A stretch of DNA of 54,622 nt from an uncultured Bacteroidota bacterium (GTDB lineage Bacteria; Bacteroidota; Bacteroidia; Bacteroidales; UBA12077): the NCBI GenBank assembly GCA_913055635.1, contig CAJXLK010000030.1, forward strand, positions 1 through 54,622. Direction: 5' to 3'. Both the position numbers and the translations under genes were made by a program. The notes under the pieces were generated by a model, which was not told the DNA's origin, did no database searches, and saw nothing but the letters and a program-made list of their open reading frames with translations. Below, in pieces: positions 1,166-43,522 of this stretch. Each line of letters opens with the position of its first letter. The stretch's first letter is position 1.

Positions 1166-4100
1166 ATGCTTCTAAAATTCTTTTTTGCTATGGTTTCCCG
1201 ATTCAAGTTTTTTCTTCTGATTTTTTTTCTCTCCGCAGCGGCTGTTCATGCACAGCAAAATCCTGTTAATGTGAATGTTAATGTGGTCCCGCCCTATTCC
1301 ATGTATCTTTCCGATTACATGCAGGGATCCAATAAAGTGGTGGTCACGCTGGTCAATCAAAGCATGAGCGAAACCCAGCGTTTCAAGCTACAGTGGCGAT
1401 TGACCGGCAACAACGATGTCTCGGCCAGCACAGAACAGGACGCCATGCCGCGTCAACCTATTGTTTTGCAGCCAGGCCAGTCCATCACCCTTTCCGCCCA
1501 GGAATTGCGTTCACGTTATCAATCTTTTAGCCGCAATGATATTGAAGTGGAAGGAATGGACCTGAGCAGCAACCTGTCCAATCAAACCCTTCCTGAAGGT
1601 ACGTATAACCTTTGTGCCCAGGCCCTTCAGTATGAGACCAACGAGCCCTTGTCAGCGGGCAAGCCGGTGGGCTGCAGCCAGCCCATCCGCATCTCCATTG
1701 TTGATCCGCCAAGGATCATGAAGCCACGCGACCAGGCCAGCATCACATCCCCTTCCCCCCAGTTCATCAACTTCAACTGGATTCCTGTGAACACCCGCAA
1801 TGCCCGGATAGAGTATAAGTTCAAACTGGTAGACATCACCGGTGCCGACATCAGTCCCTATGATGCCATGCGGAGTCAGAATTTCAAGGTCTATGAGTCC
1901 CGCAATTTGAACCAGAATTTTCTCAATTACGGCATGGGCAAACCCATGCTGGAAGACGGACACCGTTATGCCGTTCAGGTGCAGGCCTATGATCCCACCA
2001 ACCAGATCCGCATCAAAAACGACGGCAAAAGTGAGATCCATACCTTTACCTATCAACAGCGCCAGGTAGCACAGTCCCTGCTGCCCGATACCCTTGACTT
2101 GCTGCCACCTTCTCCTTCACCCACGCCCACGCCCTCCGATGACGATACCACCGAACTGGCGCAGACGGGAGCCAAAGGGAAAGGAAATTTTCAGTGCGGC
2201 GGCCATTGCACGGTGGACATATCCAATATCTCCAAACAGGCCACCGATAGGTTTGGCGCTGGCGATACGGTACTGATGGGAAATTTCGAGCTGGTGCTCA
2301 CCAATACGATTGCCAGTGGGAATGACAATCAATACATCGGGAAAGCCAACCTTGTCAATGCCACTTTCATTAAAGGCGGAAGTCTGCCGGTGCTGATGAC
2401 CAATGTGAAGATCAATCAAAACGGCCGGGTTTTTAAGGGAAAAGCTGCTTTGGAAGCCGACAGGCAAACCCTGAAGAATAAGATCAATGAGCTGAGTGGC
2501 AAACCTAAACTGAAGGATTACATTAAAAATGGGGTGCCCCTTAAAAAGGTATACAAGGAAATTTCGGGTAAGTCCAGCAAACCTAAAAAAGCACCGGTCA
2601 GTCTGAAAAAAGGTTTTGCCCACATCAAGATGGTGGGCCTGGAGTTGACCCCCACCAAGGCTACAGCCAACCTGATGGCCATGCTGGAGTTGAAGGACGA
2701 CCGCATCCGCAACAAGTACCTGACTTTTGCCACCAATGATTTGTGCATCAACCCCAAGGGACTGGCCATCTCCGAAGAAGAAGCCTACCTCAGGCTTATG
2801 AAGCCGGTCACCGTAGATGTTTCAAAAAACTATACGGTGACCCTGCTGCCGGCTGATAAGAGGGGTAAGCAAGATAAGCAGGCTACCTATCTGAATTTTG
2901 ACTGCGATGGTTTCCGTGATGTTCAGGCCTATGGCATGGTTAAGTTTTCGAGGGACCTGGTTAAACCCAAAAACAAGAATGGGAAGGTAAGTCAGCAGGA
3001 TACCCTGGCTGCCACTTTTTCAACAGCCTTCAAGAACTGGGACAACTGGGTAGCCAAGCTGGATTTTACATCGCTGCCTTCCGGGGTGAACGCTACCAAA
3101 AAGCTGGCCACCCAAAAGTTTGGTTACGTCAAGCTGCCCGGTTATACCTTCCACGTTCAAAAGGCCTACCTGGATCATTCCTCCAAAGAAGATATGTTCA
3201 AAAAGGCCGGTGGGGGTGGCAGTCCGGTTGGTCTCAACGCCGGTGCCGGATGGCAGGGTGTCTACCTGAGCAGTGCCGATGTATGGCTGCCCCAATTTTT
3301 CAACAAGAAGAGTTCTGTTCAGCAAGGATCCGGCCATGGCAGCACTCAGAATAATTCCGGAAACAGCGAGCGCATACGCATCACCGGCGATCAGCTGGTC
3401 ATTGGTGCAGCAGGGGTGAGCGGCCACATCTTTGCCACCGACCTGATGGATCGGGGTACCCTCGAGAACATGCCCCTTTCCATCGATACCCTGGATGTGG
3501 ATATCCACCGCAATATGCTCAATACCGCCCGGATGACCGGTGAACTGACCATACCTTCCTTCAAGAAACCTCTGGGCTATGAGGCCAACATCACTTACGT
3601 CAGCCAGCAGGCTTCCTACAGCTTCTTGCTGGAAACGAAAAAGACCATTCGCATTCCCATGTGGCTGGCTACAGCCGACCTGGAGCCCAACTCCACGGTC
3701 AACCTGAACATACAGGGCAGCCAGGTGGATTTCAAGGCTGTGTTGAATGGTAAGTTTACTTTCGACCGCACCCTGGGTAAAGTGCCGGGCGTTGCTATGA
3801 ACGACCTGAGGTTTCAGAATTTCAAGATCACCAACCGCGATCCATACCTGGACATCAGCAATTTTGGAATCAACACCAACGCCAAAGCTCCTAAAGTAGT
3901 GGGATACCCAACCGATCTGAAAAACATCGACGTTCAGTTTGGACAGCAAAAATACTATGCCAACCTGGGATTTGATCTGCGCTTCAACCTTTCCAAAGGG
4001 TTGAGCCAGATCTCCGGAGAATCGGAGGTGAGGCTCTACAGTGAGATCAACACCAACCAGAATCAGGGTGGAAAATCCATCCCGGAGTTCACATTCAAAC

Positions 4101-7100
4101 GGGCTGAGATTGACAGCATCAAGCTCAATGCTCAGTTTGGTCCGATGAAGATCCTGGGCTCGCTGAATATGTATAAGAACGATCCCACCTTTGGGATGGG
4201 CTTTGACGGAGACCTGGAAATGAAGGTATTCGATACACAGGGCTTTAAAGGCAATGCCCTGTTTGGCCACAAGCAGCAGTCGAACAACCAGCACCTGCGC
4301 TACTGGTATGTCGACGGCATGGCCACCTTCTATCCCGTGGGGGTCCCCTTTGCCAAACCCCTGGCTTTTTACGGTTTCGGTGGAGGGGCCTATTTCAACC
4401 TGGTCCAGAAATCGCAGGTGAGCTCCTCAAAGCTGAAAAACAAGTCGCTTACCCAGGATCCCAATGTGCGTGAGCGTTACAAGCCCCAGAAGAATACCAT
4501 CGGGATGAAGGCTTCCACCATCATTGGGTTGGAAGGCGAACCCTTTATCATCAACGGCGATGCCACCCTGGAGGCTGCCTTTAAACGCCAACCCTTTGGC
4601 ATCAAGACCCTGGGATTCTCTGGCGATGCTTATGCCCTGACCGGTGTACGCAACAGGGGAAATACCCCGGTGAAAGGGTCCATCGATGCCGAGTACCAAA
4701 ACAACATCTTTGATTTTCAATCTGCCTTTGACATAAAGGTGCCACCTAAAAGCCCGGTAATCCAAGGCAATGGTGATCTGCGTTTCCATTTGAACGACAA
4801 CAGCAATTACTGGTACCTCCATTTTGGAACGCCCAAAGACCGGGTCGGATATTCCCTTGGACTGGGCAAGGTTCAGATAGCCAGTTCATCGGGATACTTT
4901 ATGGCGGGAGATAAGATACTGGCCCCCGAACTGCCGGACAAAGTGAGCAAATATCTGGGTGGCTATACTTCCAAGTTGAAGCAGGTCAACCTGGGAGATA
5001 AGATGTCGGGTGTGGCCGCCGGGTTGAAGTTTGAGTCGGGATTTGATTTGGGCGGTAAGGTGGCCCGTGCCGAAGGTGATGTGATAGCAGGAGCGGACGT
5101 GGTGCTGGGAAAATATGCCCCGTCCATGCTTTGCAATGGCAACAGTGATTTTGGCCTCGACCACTGGTATGCCCTGGGACAAGGTTATTTCTACGGCAAC
5201 CTGGGATTTTATGTAGCTCAGAAAGAGATCCTGGGCACCACCGCTGGATCGGTCGTGGAAGTGGGCCTGCCTGATCCGGTGGGTGTGAAAGGACAAATCA
5301 AAGCCGATTTGGTCGTCCTTGGCAAATCGCTGGTCTTCAACCAGAATTTTTCCATTGGCAGCATTTGCGACTTTCAGTCTAAAGGAGGAGGCGCCGTTTC
5401 TGTCAGTTCGCCTGTGGAGCGGATGCAGTTCATCTCTTCGGTCACACCCAACCACCATCAGAAAGGCGTCGGGCTGTTTGTCGAGCCTACCATCACCTTT
5501 AACCGGGGCATTTACCACGACTCAAAGATGAGTTTTACATACTCCGATGGCAAAGGGGGCTCGCAAAAAGCCACTTACCGCTTTGATATCTCCTATACCT
5601 GGGAGAAAGAGTATCAGCCGGGCAGGTGGACCGATATCTACCGGAACCTGGATGACCAGATCATGGAAGACTACGACAAAAACAGTGAGACCCTTACCCT
5701 GACGCTCAAAGAAAATGTGGGCTCTTTGGCTTCCAAGGATTACCGGAAAATCATGTTGGAAGGAAATACACGCTACCGGCTGAAGGCCACGGTGACGGTC
5801 GAAGAAAAAACAGGGGCCAATACCTGGGAGACTGCAACCTACAACGTGGATTCCCTGAAAGGCCAGAAAATTCAGCATGTGGAGACTCATATCTTCACCA
5901 CGGGCGGAACACCGAAAAGCATACCGGAACAGCAGGTGGTGGATGTGATTCCCACCCCCCGCCGCCGCTATTTCACCCAGGATGATTATGATGAGGGATT
6001 CATGCGGTTTAATACCGATATCTCCGCTGTCTGGGACAGCCTGGAGACCGAGGGCTATGATCTGAAAGCCCGTTTTGAACCGATCAACAGCAGCGGTGAT
6101 CAGAATGAGATCCTTCAGAGTGTTCGAAAAACCAATGATGGGCGATTGGTAAAATATGATATTCCTACCTTGAAGCAGCAAACCATCTATCGGCTGGAAC
6201 TTATCGCCACACCTCCTGAAGAAGAATCCTCCCAATCAGGTGGCCTGACAGGCAAGGATAAGAGCCCGGGTAAGAGCATCTGGGGAGATGACGACTCCGA
6301 CAAGCCGGTTACCAAAATGGCGGGCAAGGCACAGGAAGGTGCCCGGAGTATGGGCAGGCGCCTGAACACGGAGGTGTTGTACACCAGCTATTTCCGGACC
6401 AGCCAGTTCAATACCATGAAAGCCAAAATCAATGCCTTGTCGGTGAGCCAGAGCAAAGTGGTTTCCAAGCAGGCCAACCGGGCCAAACAACCCCATCTGG
6501 AAAAATTCAATGCCTACGATGTGGTTCAGATCACCCTGAGCGGATCCGAACCCTTTGGCTATTATGATCTTCAGCCTGCCAATTCGCGCAATGCCTCCCA
6601 TGTGGATGTCGAAACGCCTACGGGTAAGAGCCAGTGGCAGCTGAAGATGGAGAGGCTGATCGACGGGGATGATTTTTGTGTAAGCGCCCCGGGTCGTTTG
6701 ACACCGGCCATGCGATTGCCTGCTTATGATATCGACTCATGGGCATTTGCCAAGAAATCACCTTCTGCCGTATGGTCTGGTTCGGGGGGCAGCAGTTACA
6801 AGCATGTGGACAGTCCCCTGAGCGATTCGGAAGTGGGCATCGACCAGTCATCGGGCAACAGCAATGACAACACCTATTTCCTGATGCCCATCAATTATGG
6901 TGCTGGTGGCGGGCAATCCACCAATCAAAAGGTGCTGACCGTAAGCTATCGGGACGATTATCGCGGACGGCTCAACCACGAGAAGCTTCGGGAATGCCTC
7001 AACTTTCAGTCGAATCACCCCGGCCTGAGTCCTTATCCGGCCATTCAACAGGGAACAACCATCAACCTGGAAGTTCAAGGGGCAGTGGGGACTAAGATCC

Positions 7101-7144
7101 GCGGCAGTGGTGCCAATACCTTTTCTATAACCCTGAATCCCTAA
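1166..7144 (+). CDS. Giant exported TANFOR-like surface protein
   Basis: Encodes 1992 residues. ATG 1166 gives MLLKFFFAMVSRFKFFLLIFFL, and a second in-frame ATG at 1190 is also plausible; both keep the signal peptide ending VHAQ. Residues about 30-310 (VNVNVVPPYSMYLSDYMQGS, then an Ig-like region with LPEGTYNLCAQALQYE) resemble the TANFOR N-terminal domain described in Tannerella and other Bacteroidetes; this is from memory of the family, not a search. A Pro/Ser/Thr/Asp linker (PSPSPTPTPSDDD) near residue 312 separates it from a long beta-rich body with many GYxxxLxNIxV-type strands, and a fibronectin-like region near 1450-1650. No T9SS C-terminal sorting domain is obvious. The fibronectin-module gene follows 240-260 bp downstream on the same strand. 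Function unknown; a cell-surface or adhesion scaffold is an inference. Confidence 0.8.
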   Translation: MLLKFFFAMVSRFKFFLLIFFLSAAAVHAQQNPVNVNVNVVPPYSMYLSDYMQGSNKVVVTLVNQSMSETQRFKLQWRLTGNNDVSASTEQDAMPRQPIVLQPGQSITLSAQELRSRYQSFSRNDIEVEGMDLSSNLSNQTLPEGTYNLCAQALQYETNEPLSAGKPVGCSQPIRISIVDPPRIMKPRDQASITSPSPQFINFNWIPVNTRNARIEYKFKLVDITGADISPYDAMRSQNFKVYESRNLNQNFLNYGMGKPMLEDGHRYAVQVQAYDPTNQIRIKNDGKSEIHTFTYQQRQVAQSLLPDTLDLLPPSPSPTPTPSDDDTTELAQTGAKGKGNFQCGGHCTVDISNISKQATDRFGAGDTVLMGNFELVLTNTIASGNDNQYIGKANLVNATFIKGGSLPVLMTNVKINQNGRVFKGKAALEADRQTLKNKINELSGKPKLKDYIKNGVPLKKVYKEISGKSSKPKKAPVSLKKGFAHIKMVGLELTPTKATANLMAMLELKDDRIRNKYLTFATNDLCINPKGLAISEEEAYLRLMKPVTVDVSKNYTVTLLPADKRGKQDKQATYLNFDCDGFRDVQAYGMVKFSRDLVKPKNKNGKVSQQDTLAATFSTAFKNWDNWVAKLDFTSLPSGVNATKKLATQKFGYVKLPGYTFHVQKAYLDHSSKEDMFKKAGGGGSPVGLNAGAGWQGVYLSSADVWLPQFFNKKSSVQQGSGHGSTQNNSGNSERIRITGDQLVIGAAGVSGHIFATDLMDRGTLENMPLSIDTLDVDIHRNMLNTARMTGELTIPSFKKPLGYEANITYVSQQASYSFLLETKKTIRIPMWLATADLEPNSTVNLNIQGSQVDFKAVLNGKFTFDRTLGKVPGVAMNDLRFQNFKITNRDPYLDISNFGINTNAKAPKVVGYPTDLKNIDVQFGQQKYYANLGFDLRFNLSKGLSQISGESEVRLYSEINTNQNQGGKSIPEFTFKRAEIDSIKLNAQFGPMKILGSLNMYKNDPTFGMGFDGDLEMKVFDTQGFKGNALFGHKQQSNNQHLRYWYVDGMATFYPVGVPFAKPLAFYGFGGGAYFNLVQKSQVSSSKLKNKSLTQDPNVRERYKPQKNTIGMKASTIIGLEGEPFIINGDATLEAAFKRQPFGIKTLGFSGDAYALTGVRNRGNTPVKGSIDAEYQNNIFDFQSAFDIKVPPKSPVIQGNGDLRFHLNDNSNYWYLHFGTPKDRVGYSLGLGKVQIASSSGYFMAGDKILAPELPDKVSKYLGGYTSKLKQVNLGDKMSGVAAGLKFESGFDLGGKVARAEGDVIAGADVVLGKYAPSMLCNGNSDFGLDHWYALGQGYFYGNLGFYVAQKEILGTTAGSVVEVGLPDPVGVKGQIKADLVVLGKSLVFNQNFSIGSICDFQSKGGGAVSVSSPVERMQFISSVTPNHHQKGVGLFVEPTITFNRGIYHDSKMSFTYSDGKGGSQKATYRFDISYTWEKEYQPGRWTDIYRNLDDQIMEDYDKNSETLTLTLKENVGSLASKDYRKIMLEGNTRYRLKATVTVEEKTGANTWETATYNVDSLKGQKIQHVETHIFTTGGTPKSIPEQQVVDVIPTPRRRYFTQDDYDEGFMRFNTDISAVWDSLETEGYDLKARFEPINSSGDQNEILQSVRKTNDGRLVKYDIPTLKQQTIYRLELIATPPEEESSQSGGLTGKDKSPGKSIWGDDDSDKPVTKMAGKAQEGARSMGRRLNTEVLYTSYFRTSQFNTMKAKINALSVSQSKVVSKQANRAKQPHLEKFNAYDVVQITLSGSEPFGYYDLQPANSRNASHVDVETPTGKSQWQLKMERLIDGDDFCVSAPGRLTPAMRLPAYDIDSWAFAKKSPSAVWSGSGGSSYKHVDSPLSDSEVGIDQSSGNSNDNTYFLMPINYGAGGGQSTNQKVLTVSYRDDYRGRLNHEKLRECLNFQSNHPGLSPYPAIQQGTTINLEVQGAVGTKIRGSGANTFSITLNP

Positions 7145-22035: not shown

Positions 22036-22104
22036 CCCCGCTAAGCGGGGGTAAATTTCATCCCACCCCGCTAAGCGGTATTTGTAGACCCCGCTAAGCG
22101 GGGT
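22036..22104. repeat. Three REP-like palindromes, locus 1
   Basis: Three copies of CCCCGCTAAGCGGGG (22036-22050, a shortened copy 22066-22078, and 22089-22103) lie in the gap between the nickel SOD and DUF6599 genes. Each is self-complementary around CTAAG. The same element occurs in three copies at 42329-42403. Confidence 0.9.
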
Positions 22105-38726: not shown

Positions 38727-39481
38727 GAGGACTTAGCGCAATTTATACCATCTGGTACCGCAACGTATTGAAATACTTCAGGATGAAAAGCCGCATCATT
38801 GGAAGTTTGGGCATGCCCTTCTTCTTTTTGGTGATCATCGGCTTTGGATTGAATTCGACCATCCAGGTTCCCGGCATGGAAGTGGATTATGTGGAATTTA
38901 TTGCCCCTGGCATCATTGCCATGAGCATTTTGTTTTCTAGTATGTTTTCCGGGGTGCAGCTGGTCATTGATAAACAGATTGGCTTTTTAAAGGAAACCCT
39001 GGTGGCCCCGGTTTCGCGCCTTCACCTGATGATCGGTCAGGCCCTGGGAGGGGCCACCACAGCCCTGATGCAGGGCATCCTGGTGCTGATCATCTCCCTG
39101 TTCATCGGGGTCAATTTGCCCAGCCTTTCTGGAATCCTGATTGCCCTGGTGTTTATGTTCCTGATCGGACTCTCCTTTACCTCAGTCGGCATTGCCTTTG
39201 CCTCGAGAATGGAGGATACCCACGGGTTTCAATTGATCGTCAACTTTATCCTTTTTCCGGTTTTCTTCCTCTCCGGCGCCCTCTTCCCACTGGATCGAAT
39301 CCCTGATTGGCTCTCTTTTTTAACCTATATTGACCCCTTGACCTATGGGGTCGAAGGCATTCGTTACGGGCTGCTCGGTGCCACCCAGATTACACCGGTG
39401 TTGAGCTTTTCTGCCCTTGGCGGGTTTTTAGTGGCCATGCTGCTGCTCGGGAGTTTCCTGTTCAATAAAATAAAAATTTAA
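38723..39481 (+). CDS. ABC-2 type permease (DrrB-like)
   Basis: Encodes 252 residues with about six membrane helices, including MPFFFLVIIGFGLNS, GIIAMSILFSSMFSGVQ and LIVNFILFPVFFLSGALFPL. The signature near LSGALFPLDRIPDWL and FLTYIDPLTYGVEGIRYGLL is that of ABC-2 family exporters. It is the membrane partner of the preceding ATPase (ATGA overlap). The substrate is unknown. Confidence 0.92.
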   Translation: MRGLSAIYTIWYRNVLKYFRMKSRIIGSLGMPFFFLVIIGFGLNSTIQVPGMEVDYVEFIAPGIIAMSILFSSMFSGVQLVIDKQIGFLKETLVAPVSRLHLMIGQALGGATTALMQGILVLIISLFIGVNLPSLSGILIALVFMFLIGLSFTSVGIAFASRMEDTHGFQLIVNFILFPVFFLSGALFPLDRIPDWLSFLTYIDPLTYGVEGIRYGLLGATQITPVLSFSALGGFLVAMLLLGSFLFNKIKI

Positions 39482-39531
39482 AGGCAAAATGGGTCGGCCC
39501 CCTACAAATATGAAATTGTTGCATCCTGACC

Positions 39532-39963
39532 ATGAACATTCCCTGTCCAAATAAAGACCTCTTGCCCGGGCGTTATGCTTTACGGCTCATAAGTGTTGTG
39601 ATCCTGGCCCTATTAATGGGTGCCTGTAAGCCCGATTACAAAAAACATCAGTTGGAGGTCACCGCCACTGCCTACAATTCCCATGCCAATCAGACCCAGG
39701 GAGACCCCAGAATTACCGCCTGGGGCGATACCCTTAAACCGGGCATGAAAGCAATAGCTGTTTCCCGCGACCTGATTTCCCGGGGACTTACATCCGGGGT
39801 GGAAGTTAAAATAGAAGGCCTGCCGGGAACTTACGTGGTCCGCGATAAGATGAACCGGCGTTGGGAGAAGAAGATCGACATTTATATGGGAAATGACCTG
39901 GAAAAAGCCCGGGAATGGGGGAGGAAAAAAGTGGTCATTCACTGGAAAACAAAAATTCATTAA
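39532..39963 (+). CDS. 3D-domain lipoprotein (RlpA/MltA-like fold)
   Basis: Encodes 143 residues. Leader ALRLISVVILALLMGACKPD has a lipobox with Cys. The rest is a 3D domain: TATAYNSHANQTQGDPRITA, WGDTLKPGMKAIAVSRDL and VVRDKMNRRWEKKIDIYMGN, with three conserved Asp (GD, RD, ID). Such domains occur in lytic transglycosylases and RlpA/Sps proteins acting on peptidoglycan. Located 50 bp after the ABC permease and 32 bp before the sigma-54 activator, so it may be part of the same envelope-related operon. Confidence 0.82.
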   Translation: MNIPCPNKDLLPGRYALRLISVVILALLMGACKPDYKKHQLEVTATAYNSHANQTQGDPRITAWGDTLKPGMKAIAVSRDLISRGLTSGVEVKIEGLPGTYVVRDKMNRRWEKKIDIYMGNDLEKAREWGRKKVVIHWKTKIH

Positions 39964-39994
39964 ATTTATTGGTCTCAGCAAAACCATTGTATAT

Positions 39995-41068
39995 ATGCTG
40001 GATCCTCAGCAAATAGAGGAAGAGCGCTATTATCAGGTCAGTGAATTGATCCCCGCCTCGCCCATATCCTTCCACAGTGATCAGATGAAGGGTTACTGGT
40101 TGTTTTCGGATCAGATAAAAAGCCTGTTCAACCGGTTGCGAAAGATGGCCTCCAGCCCTGATATACCCCTGCTTATTAAAGGGCACACCGGAAGTGGCAA
40201 AGAGGTGGTGGCACGTTTTATGCACCATGAGGTGGATCAAAACCAGGGCCGGTTTATCGCCATCAATTGTACCAACATGAACAGGGAGCTTTTTGAATCT
40301 CAACTTTTTGGTTATAGCGGGGGGGCTTTTACCGGGGCCCAGAAATCCGGACACCAGGGATATATCAAACAAGCGGGTTCAGGAACCCTCTTTTTGGATG
40401 AGATCAGTGAAATCGACCCGGAGCTTCAGGCGAAACTGCTCCGGGTGATCGAACAGGGAGAGTATTTTCCCTTGGGAAGCAATCAGAAAGAAACCGTACG
40501 GGCCCGGATGATTTTTGCTTCCAACAACGACCTTGAAAAAATGATGGAGAACGGCCGCCTTCGTGAGGATCTGTATTACCGCCTAAATGTGGTTGCCGTC
40601 GAAATGCCGGGTTTAAAAGACCGACGCGAGGAGATTATACCGCTGGTGGCCCTTTTTATTGACCATTATAACCGGGAATTTCAAAAGCAGATCCATTACG
40701 TGCAGGGAAAAGTACTCCGCTTCTTTTATGCCTACAATTGGCCGGGAAATATCCGCGAGCTGAAAAATTTTATTACCCAGATGATGATTTTCATTGAAGG
40801 CGATACCCTCAGATTTGAGCATCTCCATATAAAAGATGAAATGGAGCGGCAGCAAACCCAAAGCTTTTCACAGCAGCTTTCGGGAAAAGAACAATCCAAA
40901 CAGGATATTATCGATGCCCTGATTGAAGAACCTTTTGATTTGGAGGCCTTTACCTCCGAAGTGGTGCGGCGCACACTGAAAAAGTTTGGAGGCAATAAAT
41001 CCAAAACTGCCCGTTTTTTGGGAATAAAACGAGAGCAGCTTTATCATCGATACCGAATTGATAAATAA
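39995..41068 (+). CDS. Sigma-54-dependent enhancer-binding activator without receiver domain
   Basis: Encodes 357 residues from ATG 39995 (MLDPQQIEEERYYQVSELIP); earlier codons overlap the lipoprotein gene. An N-terminal region of about 40 residues replaces a sensor or receiver. AAA+ domain: Walker A GHTGSGKE (63-70), sigma-54 contact loop GAFTGA (110-115), Walker B TLFLDE (about 131-136), sensor region FASNND and the arginine finger zone REDLYYRLNVV. The C-terminus is a Fis-type helix-turn-helix (FGGNKSKTARFLGIKREQ). It would open sigma-54 promoters by ATP hydrolysis. Two 17-bp palindromes and a -24/-12 element immediately downstream are probable target sites for control of the next gene. 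Confidence 0.93.
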   Translation: MLDPQQIEEERYYQVSELIPASPISFHSDQMKGYWLFSDQIKSLFNRLRKMASSPDIPLLIKGHTGSGKEVVARFMHHEVDQNQGRFIAINCTNMNRELFESQLFGYSGGAFTGAQKSGHQGYIKQAGSGTLFLDEISEIDPELQAKLLRVIEQGEYFPLGSNQKETVRARMIFASNNDLEKMMENGRLREDLYYRLNVVAVEMPGLKDRREEIIPLVALFIDHYNREFQKQIHYVQGKVLRFFYAYNWPGNIRELKNFITQMMIFIEGDTLRFEHLHIKDEMERQQTQSFSQQLSGKEQSKQDIIDALIEEPFDLEAFTSEVVRRTLKKFGGNKSKTARFLGIKREQLYHRYRIDK

Positions 41069-41089
41069 GGGGTCCCCGCCCCAAGGATA

Positions 41090-41106
41090 GTGTATGATTT
41101 TTTACA
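41090..41106. promoter_or_regulatory. Upstream activator site 1 (sigma-54 enhancer candidate)
   Basis: GTGTATGATTTTTTACA, an imperfect palindrome TGTA-N8-TACA. It differs from site 2 at one base and starts exactly 42 bp before it (four DNA turns), about 143 bp before the predicted transcription start. Confidence 0.6.
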
Positions 41107-41131
41107 GATGGTTTTTTTCAGGATATGAAGG

Positions 41132-41148
41132 GTGTAAGATTTTTTACA
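41132..41148. promoter_or_regulatory. Upstream activator site 2 (sigma-54 enhancer candidate)
   Basis: GTGTAAGATTTTTTACA, extended by flanking G/C to the hairpin-like GGTGTAA...TTACACC. It is about 101 bp before the predicted start, within the usual range for enhancer-binding proteins. Confidence 0.6.
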
Positions 41149-41214
41149 CCGCGAAGGGGAATGAGCGGGACGGCCTTTTTTAAAATCATTGAAGATCAGG
41201 ATTATGTATACCTT

Positions 41215-41229
41215 TGGCACATTAATTGA
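41215..41229 (+). promoter_or_regulatory. Candidate sigma-54 (-24/-12) promoter
   Basis: TGGCACATTAATTGA matches TGGCACG-N4-TTGC at 13 of the 15 positions counted as fixed or spaced, with the correct 10 bases between GG and the -12 dinucleotide. The -12 GC is GA here, which would weaken it. Transcription would begin near 41241, about 16 bp before the response-regulator ATG. Confidence 0.6.
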
Positions 41230-41256
41230 TATGATTTGCACAGACAAGGGTGTTCT

Positions 41257-41619
41257 ATGAAGATTTTAAACATTGATGATTCTACTGTGAACAACATGCT
41301 GATGGAAAACATCATCAGCTCCTTCGGGTACGAGGCTTATTCGCTTTTGCAGGGATCCGGGATTGCTGAAAAGATTGAAGAGTATCAGCCTGACGTGATC
41401 ATCCTGGATCTGATGATGCCGGATAAAAGTGGGTTTGATGTGTTGGACGAACTCAATAAACTGGGCTTTAATATTCCGGTTATTGTGGTAACGGCCATGA
41501 ACAGTTCCGAACTGAAGCGTCGGGCCTTGGAGATGGGAGCAGTGGACTATCAGGCGAAGCCGGTCAATATGAAGAGCCTGAAAAGGAGCCTTGATAAGGC
41601 CTTTCAGGGAGAGGCCTGA
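41257..41619 (+). CDS. Single-domain response regulator receiver (CheY-like)
   Basis: Encodes 120 residues from ATG 41257 (MKILNIDDSTVNNMLMENII); an upstream TTG at 41236 lies near the predicted transcription start and is rejected. Acid residues D7/D8, phospho-acceptor D51 (VIILDLMMPDKSG), the Thr in VVTAMNSS and Lys in YQAKPVN complete the receiver site. No output domain, so it passes phosphoryl groups or binds partners. No kinase gene is nearby. It follows the predicted sigma-54 promoter, and the barrel gene is 49 bp downstream. Confidence 0.93.
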   Translation: MKILNIDDSTVNNMLMENIISSFGYEAYSLLQGSGIAEKIEEYQPDVIILDLMMPDKSGFDVLDELNKLGFNIPVIVVTAMNSSELKRRALEMGAVDYQAKPVNMKSLKRSLDKAFQGEA

Positions 41620-41668
41620 GTTTTGGCGATAGAACATCCTCCGAACCGCAAATCATATCGGAGGTACT

Positions 41669-42304
41669 ATGTTATCTTTTTCCCGCATCAAGTGGTCAAA
41701 ATGGATTATTTTTCTTACTGTTTTTTTTAGTTTTAACCCATTAATGGCTCAGCTTTCCGAATCTCCCGGGGATTATTTTGGCGCCCGCTTTTACCAGGAA
41801 ATTAACGGGCTGGTTAACAACAGAAATGTTTTAGGTGCCGAGTACACGCATCATCGACGTACCTACGAGTTGGGATTGTTGCTGAACAGGATGAAGATGG
41901 TTTCAGGGTTTGTTTTTCGCCATCAATTTTTCCTGAATTCCACCCGGCCAAACCATAATTATCAAATCGATGACTATACCTGGCGTCCCTACCTGATCTA
42001 TCATTTTGTTTATAACACGAATATTTCGGAGCGTTACCTGAAAAATTCGATAGGCACTGGTACTATAAGGTTTAAGCAGGAGTATCCGGGTGTTCCAACT
42101 GTCAATACCATGGAGCATTATTTGGGTTTTGGAACCGAAGTGGATATGGTAGGGGCGTTTTTTATGAACGTCTATGTGGGGGGCGGGTTATATTTTTACC
42201 GCAGCAATTCCCGGGTAGTCACCCGGGATGATCGGCTGTTGCCCGAACAACACATCGGTTTTACCTGGAACATGAGCTTCGGGATAGGCTACCGCTTGCA
42301 TTGA
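41669..42304 (+). CDS. Exported putative outer-membrane protein
   Basis: Encodes 211 residues with a signal peptide (KWIIFLTVFFSFNPLMAQ). The body has the strand pattern of a small outer-membrane barrel: DYFGARFYQEINGLVNNR, VLGAEYTHHRRTYELGLLLN, HYLGFGTEVDMVGAFFMNVY and the last strand FTWNMSFGIGYRLH ending near the C-terminus. No family recognised. It lies 49 bp after the response regulator, so it is probably co-transcribed from the sigma-54 promoter; this makes it a candidate regulated product of that module. Confidence 0.7.
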   Translation: MLSFSRIKWSKWIIFLTVFFSFNPLMAQLSESPGDYFGARFYQEINGLVNNRNVLGAEYTHHRRTYELGLLLNRMKMVSGFVFRHQFFLNSTRPNHNYQIDDYTWRPYLIYHFVYNTNISERYLKNSIGTGTIRFKQEYPGVPTVNTMEHYLGFGTEVDMVGAFFMNVYVGGGLYFYRSNSRVVTRDDRLLPEQHIGFTWNMSFGIGYRLH

Positions 42305-42328
42305 TATCCATTACCCTGCTTTACATCA

Positions 42329-42403
42329 CCCCGCTAAGCGGAGTTCTTTTAATCCTGACCCCGCTAAGCGGGGTTCTTTTAATTATGACCCCGCTTAGCG
42401 GGG
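42329..42403. repeat. Three REP-like palindromes, locus 2
   Basis: Copies of CCCCGCTAAGCGGGG (42329-42343, altered at the end, 42359-42373) and CCCCGCTTAGCGGGG (42389-42403), spaced at 30 bp, with shared spacer TTCTTTTAAT. The same palindrome occurs at locus 1 (22036). Confidence 0.9.
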
Positions 42404-42459
42404 TGATTCCATAAATTGTGATATATTTGAGGGGCAAAGCAACCTGAAAATTGAAAGGT

Positions 42460-43035
42460 ATGAGAGCATTGTTGTTTAATGGCAGTCCCCGTGAGAAAGG
42501 CAATACCGCTGCTATGCTGACCCGGATCTCTGATGTGTTTTATGAATCAAACGCCCATGTAGATTATATCCAGCTTGGCGGCCAATCAATCCACGGATGC
42601 ACCGCATGCATGGAATGCAGGCAGAACAAAGATGAACGCTGTGTACTGGAAGACGACGGGGTCAATGAATACATCCAATTGATGAAGAAAGCCGATGCCA
42701 TTGTGATTGGTTCACCGGTATATTTTTCCCAGATCACACCGGAGACCAAAGCCTTAATTGACCGGTGTGGTTATGTGATCAGGGGCAACAAACAATTTTT
42801 GAGCCGCAAGATTGGAGCAGCCGTAACAGTGGCACGCCGTGCCGGAATGATGCCGGCTTTTCACTCCATCAACGATTTTTTTCTGATCAACGACATGATT
42901 GTACCCGGTTCACAATACTGGAATGTGGGGGTTGCCGGAGGAGCCGGTGAGGTACAGCAGGATGAGGAAAGCCTTGCCATCGTAACCCGCCTGGCTCATA
43001 ATATCCTTTGGTTGCATGATCAGATTCACCGATAA
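42460..43035 (+). CDS. Iron-sulfur flavoprotein / NAD(P)H-dependent FMN reductase family
   Basis: Encodes 191 residues from ATG 42460 (MRALLFNGSPREKGNTAAML); an earlier TTG is less likely. SPREKGNT is the FMN phosphate loop of the flavodoxin-like reductases; ADAIVIGSPVYFSQITPETK is the second flavin-binding segment. The cluster C47-x2-C50-x2-C53-x7-C61 (GCTACMECRQNKDERC) is the compact Cys motif of archaeal and anaerobic iron-sulfur flavoproteins, which can hold a 4Fe-4S cluster. It would move electrons between a nicotinamide or ferredoxin and an acceptor. It follows the REP repeats. Confidence 0.88.
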   Translation: MRALLFNGSPREKGNTAAMLTRISDVFYESNAHVDYIQLGGQSIHGCTACMECRQNKDERCVLEDDGVNEYIQLMKKADAIVIGSPVYFSQITPETKALIDRCGYVIRGNKQFLSRKIGAAVTVARRAGMMPAFHSINDFFLINDMIVPGSQYWNVGVAGGAGEVQQDEESLAIVTRLAHNILWLHDQIHR

Positions 43036-43192
43036 AATACATTTATTCAATTTAAATAAATATAAACCGGCCAACGCCTCCTGTAATCCTTGCCGATAGC
43101 CTTCTTTGGGTTCACCCCCTGGGCCCCTCTTGACTGGTTGAGCCAGATTGTTTATCTTACCCGTATACACCTGCAGCCAGGCATTTGGGATT

Positions 43193-43522
43193 ATGAACCA
43201 CTATGACTATTTATGGCCCGTTCTCGAAGAATTCCGCTCTTATTTAGGGCCGCAGAAAATGCTCTTTACCTATATCGCTCCTAAAGACCGGGAGTTGTAT
43301 TATACTTTCCTGCGCAATATTTATAATTCCTCCATGTCCAATTGCCTGTATCTTACCCTGTCCAAACCCGATACGGTCAGGAAACTGCTTTCTGATATGA
43401 ACCTGCTGGAGGATACCGAAATGGAAATTTATATCGCCTCCAATGACCTTTATGCCACCAGGTGGTTCAATGAATCGCTGCAGAATTTTATCCGCCGCAA
43501 ACACCTCGATTTTGAGTATTGA
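43193..43522 (+). CDS. Hypothetical protein
   Basis: Encodes 109 residues from ATG 43193 (MNHYDYLWPVLEEFRSYLGP); the longer frame from 43148 uses TTG and is not favoured. It has alternating helix- and strand-like sections (LLSDMNLLEDTEMEIYIASN, LYATRWFNESLQNFIRRK) and no signal peptide or membrane helix. A probable terminator follows, which supports a real gene. I do not recognise a family. Confidence 0.6.
   Translation: MNHYDYLWPVLEEFRSYLGPQKMLFTYIAPKDRELYYTFLRNIYNSSMSNCLYLTLSKPDTVRKLLSDMNLLEDTEMEIYIASNDLYATRWFNESLQNFIRRKHLDFEY

Follow-up and report, generated by a model that had tools for sequence, protein, structure and literature searches.

What does a sigma-54 activator that lacks a sensor domain control, and what controls the activator, when the gene directly downstream encodes a stand-alone receiver? 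This arrangement occurs in the 54,622-nucleotide window analysed here, contig 30 of a 4.08 Mb genome in 77 contigs (labelled G000 below). From sequence comparison, the junction between the two genes is very probably the enhancer and sigma-54 promoter of a local switch, through which the neighbouring activator would drive the receiver gene and a gene for a predicted eight-stranded outer-membrane barrel (Table 1).

Paired dyads and a candidate sigma-54 promoter

The palindrome pair 42 bp apart that an initial annotation of this DNA had described is indeed present (GTGTATGATTTTTTACA and GTGTAAGATTTTTTACA, measured start to start). Both sites are TGTA-N8-TACA dyads; the proximal one (GTGTAA-N6-TTACAC) is the better palindrome, the distal one being dyadic in TGTA...TACA only. 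They start 124 bp (distal) and 82 bp (proximal) upstream of the TGG of the promoter element. TGTA-N8-TACA occurs three times in the window against 0.19 expected, a number reached by one of 100 shuffles; two of these occurrences are the junction sites and the third, at 39625, is intragenic. When the 191 bp from the activator stop codon to the receiver start were shuffled 2000 times, no shuffle reached the two sites at 10/12 or better that are observed, and two shuffles gave two sites at 9/12 or better. Genome-wide, GTGTANGATTTTTTACA without mismatch is found only at the two junction dyads, with four further places at two mismatches. The dyads exceed chance, and their exact form is confined to the junction within this genome.

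The annotation had also placed a -24/-12 element ahead of the response regulator start, and this element (TGGCACATTAATTGA) is found there with correct spacing (TGGCAC-N5-TTGA), which would put the transcript start at about 41240-41241. Its -12 part is TTGA; the C of the -12 element is usual, not strict, and it is absent from six of the seven junctions compared below (TTGA in five, TTGG in one, TTGC in G004 only). The genome carries one rpoN gene (PF04552, 2.4e-56), whose product contains ARRTVAKYRE, presumably the RpoN box. On its own, the -24/-12 motif is not above chance, with three occurrences in the window against 2.0 in shuffles, and TTTGGYAY-N5-TTG is not enriched genome-wide (21 places, 16 for the reversed control). 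Because neither this element nor the genome-wide dyad counts exceed chance, the case rests on position and conservation.

Table 1 Coordinates of the junction, its flanking genes and related loci in other genomes (window numbering unless a locus is given).
Feature	Position	Strand	Basis
Activator (enhancer-binding protein), AAA+ with GAFTGA and Fis-type HTH, no sensor domain	39998..41068	+	Pfam, orthologue alignment, model
Distal dyad, proposed activator site, core TGTATGATTTTTTACA at 41091-41106	41090..41106	+	sequence; counterparts in 6/6 relatives
Proximal dyad, proposed activator site, core TGTAAGATTTTTTACA at 41133-41148	41132..41148	+	sequence; counterparts in 6/6 relatives
Proposed sigma-54 promoter, -24 TGGCAC, -12 TTGA	41215..41229	+	sequence; 6/6 relatives
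Stand-alone receiver, CheY-like response regulator (ATG at 41257)	41257..41619	+	Pfam Response_reg 2.5e-23
Predicted 8-stranded outer-membrane beta-barrel, same operon as receiver	41669..42304	+	model, pLDDT 74.5
Hairpin then T-rich tail, possible operon end	42357..42375	+	pattern scan; within repeat array
Divergent frames beside the activator (G007, G014, G018)	L018 4623-8057; L019 9846-13262; L021 948-4358	-; +; +	
Putative ABC-exporter promoters of sister-genus relatives	L203 4888-5030; L204 3939-4060; L205 2557-2680 (reverse strand numbering); L206 4179-4320; L207 4010-4110		

Conservation of the junction in related genomes

Of 59 genomes searched for the activator, nine matched at 1e-60 or better. 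These are the window's own genome, six others from its family, and two more distant genomes in which the frames are longer (G039, G044). Among the family relatives, G001, G002 and G004 belong to the window's genus and G007, G014 and G018 to a sister genus; in all six, the activator gene lies directly upstream of the receiver gene. With the window's own, we read seven junctions, which come from related family genomes and so are not independent of one another. Each contains at least two dyads at 9/12 or better together with TGG(C/T/A)A(C/T)-N5-TTG, and the proximal dyad starts 82, 82, 81, 80, 80, 79 and 79 bp ahead of TGG (G000, G001, G004, G002, G007, G014 and G018, respectively). The proximal pair is spaced by 42, 43, 43 and 43 bp in the window's genus (G000, G001, G004, G002) and by 32, 33 and 32 bp in the sister genus (G007, G014, G018). 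These spacings are near whole helical turns, which predicts same-face placement of the two sites in all seven junctions. In the sister genus, an additional dyad is located at the activator stop codon or shortly after it, with 68, 67 and 64 bp separating it from the next one downstream; it would share that face loosely at best, being poorly phased in two of the three relatives. A further weak site (9/12) overlaps the promoter in G014 and was left out of the spacing figures.

The number of sites observed at 9/12 is reached by 0 to 24 of 2000 shuffles per junction, and nine of the 11 dyads at 11/12 or better in the 117,038 bases around these loci fall inside junctions; the junction alignment displays three blocks conserved amid diverged bases. 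Some of the sequences are incomplete: the G018 activator is on two contigs with internal stops, that of G002 is cut at a contig end, the first part of its frame being unrelated sequence, and the G004 contig stops inside the receiver gene. The initial annotation had predicted that the activator controls the receiver-barrel operon, a prediction that it held refutable by a lack of conserved palindromes where both genes occur. The palindromes do recur in all six relatives, their distance from the -24/-12 element, itself conserved, being nearly constant, and this conservation supports the predicted control. G004 has another such dyad (11/12) just upstream of its activator gene (L017 1569-1584), which would permit autoregulation there.

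A wider regulon was sought in three ways and rejected in each. The dyad alone (TGTAAG-N4-CTTACA, up to two mismatches) is rarer genome-wide than its reversed control, with 82 and 145 places, respectively. Paired dyads were found in seven of 25 family genomes, against two of 25 for the reversed control; the G000 and G004 matches are this junction and the G014 match lies elsewhere. The dyad-plus-promoter pattern matched at 20 places in 14 of the 25 genomes (reversed control, two of 25), of which three are this junction (G000, G004, G002) and five an ABC-exporter promoter, and in the window's own genome it matched nothing besides the junction. As far as seen, the switch would have one target, the operon of the receiver and the barrel; weak targets may be missed, because the strict pattern passes over the less exact sites at the junctions of G001, G007, G014 and G018. 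The ABC-exporter promoter occurs in five sister-genus relatives, where a sigma-54-like TTTGGTA(C/T)-N5-TTG, accompanied by TGTAC-N6-GTACA dyads, precedes an operon that we read from the sequences as ABC-exporter-like; in four of the five, two of these dyads are spaced by 21 bp. Sigma-54 enrichment of such permeases in Bacteroidia is described in a passage of PMC12316311.

The activator, the receiver and the barrel

The GAFTGA loop, the Fis-type HTH and the absence of a sensor domain that had been ascribed to the activator were all confirmed by Pfam and by alignment. The protein matches Sigma54_activat (3.6e-58) and HTH_8 (4e-8) and no N-terminal domain, its AAA+ match starts at residue 37 of 356, and no extra domain is present in its model (pLDDT 75.8, with lower values over the HTH), which begins with a stretch of about 37 residues. 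GAFTGA is invariant across five aligned orthologues; the start codon was set from the alignment with five relatives, in a frame that is open from 39893 and upstream. On its predicted domains, the activator is of group 4 (sensor-less) anatomy. Group 4 activators are described, in a part of PMC7175178, as lacking a regulatory domain and being controlled in trans by protein binding. Since about 8% of activators are shorter than 400 aa according to a passage of PMC3162934, activators without a sensor are not as such a rarity.

The nearest relatives of the activator bear an N-terminal extension, mostly a receiver, and the activator has therefore probably lost one, which is the simplest history. In a midpoint-rooted tree of 44 rows chosen by similarity to the activator (PspF and G018 left out), the six orthologues have as their sister group a pair of Spirochaetales proteins that bear an N-terminal receiver (99/96). 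All of these fall in a group of 17 rows, of which the 11 besides the orthologues comprise nine flagged as receiver-bearing by a simple pattern and two with N-terminal extensions of like size. Wider-spread samples comprised 393 genomes of the order (at 1e-70) and 395 of the phylum (at 1e-85), with at most five candidates scored per genome. Among the matches listed, all outside the G000 and G007 orthologues sit in open frames of at least 446 aa, and so no sensor-less orthologue was seen outside the family in these samples. A scan of named genomes returned at least 80 loci, the best identity being 42% among the matches listed. The activator of one genome of the same order (G399) is identical, over the compared part, to one of Labilibacter marinus, which marks the bacterium of the window as a member of the Bacteroidota. 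About 5 kb from the sensor-less activator, G007 also carries a gene for a receiver-AAA+-HTH activator followed by one with a histidine-kinase ATPase domain (L018 82-2782, +), and G014 has like-sized frames.

The receiver retains an acidic pair, a phospho-aspartate, Thr or Ser, and Lys in the six full sequences, which we take to be its phospho-acceptor residues. We considered whether it is the activator's own detached domain, an assignment that the sequence does not allow, as three classes of protein score about alike: a profile of the six receivers gives 94 bits for a 469-aa protein (in L047), 93.5 for a stand-alone receiver beside a barrel relative, and up to 89 for receivers of full-length activators.

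The barrel gene is present in six of the seven family genomes with the activator and in none of the 18 without (thresholds 1e-5 for the barrel profile and 1e-60 for the activator), several of the latter being incomplete; five of the six matches are the profile's own members, that in G018 is new, and the G004 sequence ends before the barrel. Across the order, barrel matches were found in 16 genomes besides G000 and G007. In two of them (G340 of family f39 and G269 of family f43), a CRP/FNR-like gene and a stand-alone receiver lie close to a weakly related barrel gene, which matches at 6e-10 in G340 (one of the two pieces of a broken frame) and at 3e-10 in G269, and in G402 a barrel relative (4e-17) adjoins a CRP/FNR-like gene. 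These make three of the 16 genomes (L233 948-3094, L234 4638-6393, L235 3-1498), the CRP/FNR-like identity being our reading of the sequence, with no family search. No activator of the present kind was seen beside barrel relatives in the neighbours of 15 of 19 loci. The receiver and the barrel may form an older pair that different activators have come to control (sigma-54 here, the CRP/FNR-like type in two further families of this order), and we offer their belonging together under changing activators as a lead, no more.

The pattern scan that gave the hairpin beyond the barrel gene (Table 1) yielded eight terminator-like sites in 2.7 kb, against 3.3 in shuffles. The hairpin is contained in the second of two plus-strand arrays of three CCCCGCT(A/T)AGCGGGG palindromes (22036-22103 and 42329-42403, the latter after the barrel gene; 0.10 expected by chance), two of the six palindromes having one or two mismatches. 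Rfam returned no match at gathering score within 39000-43500. Elsewhere in the window, a 1992-aa open frame (1166-7144, +) has no Pfam match at 0.001.

The proposed switch, its alternatives and known systems

In the switch that we propose, the activator would bind both dyads on the same helix face, assemble its AAA+ ring there and, via DNA looping, open the RpoN-polymerase complex at the promoter, upon which the receiver and the outer-membrane barrel would be made. We infer that this activator is the dyad binder, that the promoter is active and that the operon is its main or only target. A passage of PMC3162934 makes the case that sigma-54 governs the cell exterior, and a target in the outer membrane agrees with this view.

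Could the motifs be coincidental, the receiver transcript coming instead from a housekeeping promoter or from read-through of the activator gene? By itself, the -24/-12 match does not exceed chance, and no strong plus-strand terminator-like site was found between the two genes, but the three blocks are kept at near-fixed spacing in seven junctions and the aligned promoters share no TAnnTTTG element, the Bacteroidota housekeeping promoter motif; coincidence is thus very improbable. A real sigma-54 promoter whose dyads are bound by some other activator or a repressor, the neighbouring activator acting elsewhere, is another alternative, given ten other strong Sigma54_activat matches in the genome and the TGTAC-N6-GTACA dyads before a different promoter in five relatives without the activator at the threshold used. 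The dyads, however, lie between both genes in seven of seven activator genomes, and the dyad-plus-promoter pattern matches once in the window's genome, which makes this alternative quite unlikely.

A further alternative bears on the input of the switch and is compatible with the reading that we prefer: a SiaA-like phosphatase pathway, not the receiver, may set the activity of the activator. In G007, G014 and G018, the activator is flanked by a divergent frame of 1137-1145 aa. This frame matches the SpoIIE phosphatase and Reg_prop families in G007 and G014, and that of G007 also matches NCBIfam SiaA (8.5e-53, under the family cut-off); for G018, the observation is of an open frame of similar length only. 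Such a gene does not flank the activator in the window, however, and the receiver gene adjoins the activator in all seven genomes, so that we regard this pathway as unlikely.

Returning to the proposed switch, the activity of an activator without a sensor domain must depend on how much of the protein is present or on a partner in trans. The nearest candidate partner would be the receiver made from the activator's own target operon, a conjecture to which our confidence in the switch itself does not extend. The initial annotation had likewise suggested that the receiver could tune the activator; the phospho-acceptor residues retained in six receiver sequences and the receivers borne by most relatives of the activator make such feedback a plausible conjecture. 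Taken further, the locus would be a split NtrC, in which the built-in receiver was lost and a separate, self-made receiver from the one target promoter, along with the barrel, switches the activator in trans, a scheme that we consider possible but doubtful. The sequence parts of the switch exist and are kept in related bacteria, and the activator probably turns on the neighbouring receiver and barrel genes. The module is compact and conserved; as it comprises one activator, a single promoter (as far as seen) and an obvious candidate partner, control in trans can be tested directly; the activator-site motif and the -12 variant (TTG without C) are useful for predicting sigma-54 promoters in this lineage. 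Among the papers listed by literature searches, none describes an activator-receiver-barrel module in its title or abstract.

Among known barrels, OmpW, OprG and AlkL have the eight strands that are predicted here, and OmpW is the best Foldseek match (E 2.2e-4); the resemblance is weak (TM-score 0.41, 13% identity), the barrel has no Pfam match, and we do not claim membership. Sensor-less activators need outside control, PspF with PspA being the standard case. PspF and HrpR/HrpS, listed in group 4 in a table of PMC7175178, have the same AAA+ plus HTH without a regulatory domain, and in common with the activator here their activity is presumably set by a protein binding in trans. The activator differs in falling among receiver-bearing NtrC-type activators, in a tree that had no PspF; it scores 206.3 bits against the PspF family of NCBIfam (TIGR02974), below the cut-off of 443.55, no psp genes occur in the neighbourhood searched, and its target is the receiver-barrel operon. 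By sequence and tree, its nearest relatives are the NtrC/AtoC-type activators of group 1, built of receiver, AAA+ and HTH, in contrast to which the activator here has no receiver domain and a separate receiver is encoded in the downstream operon.
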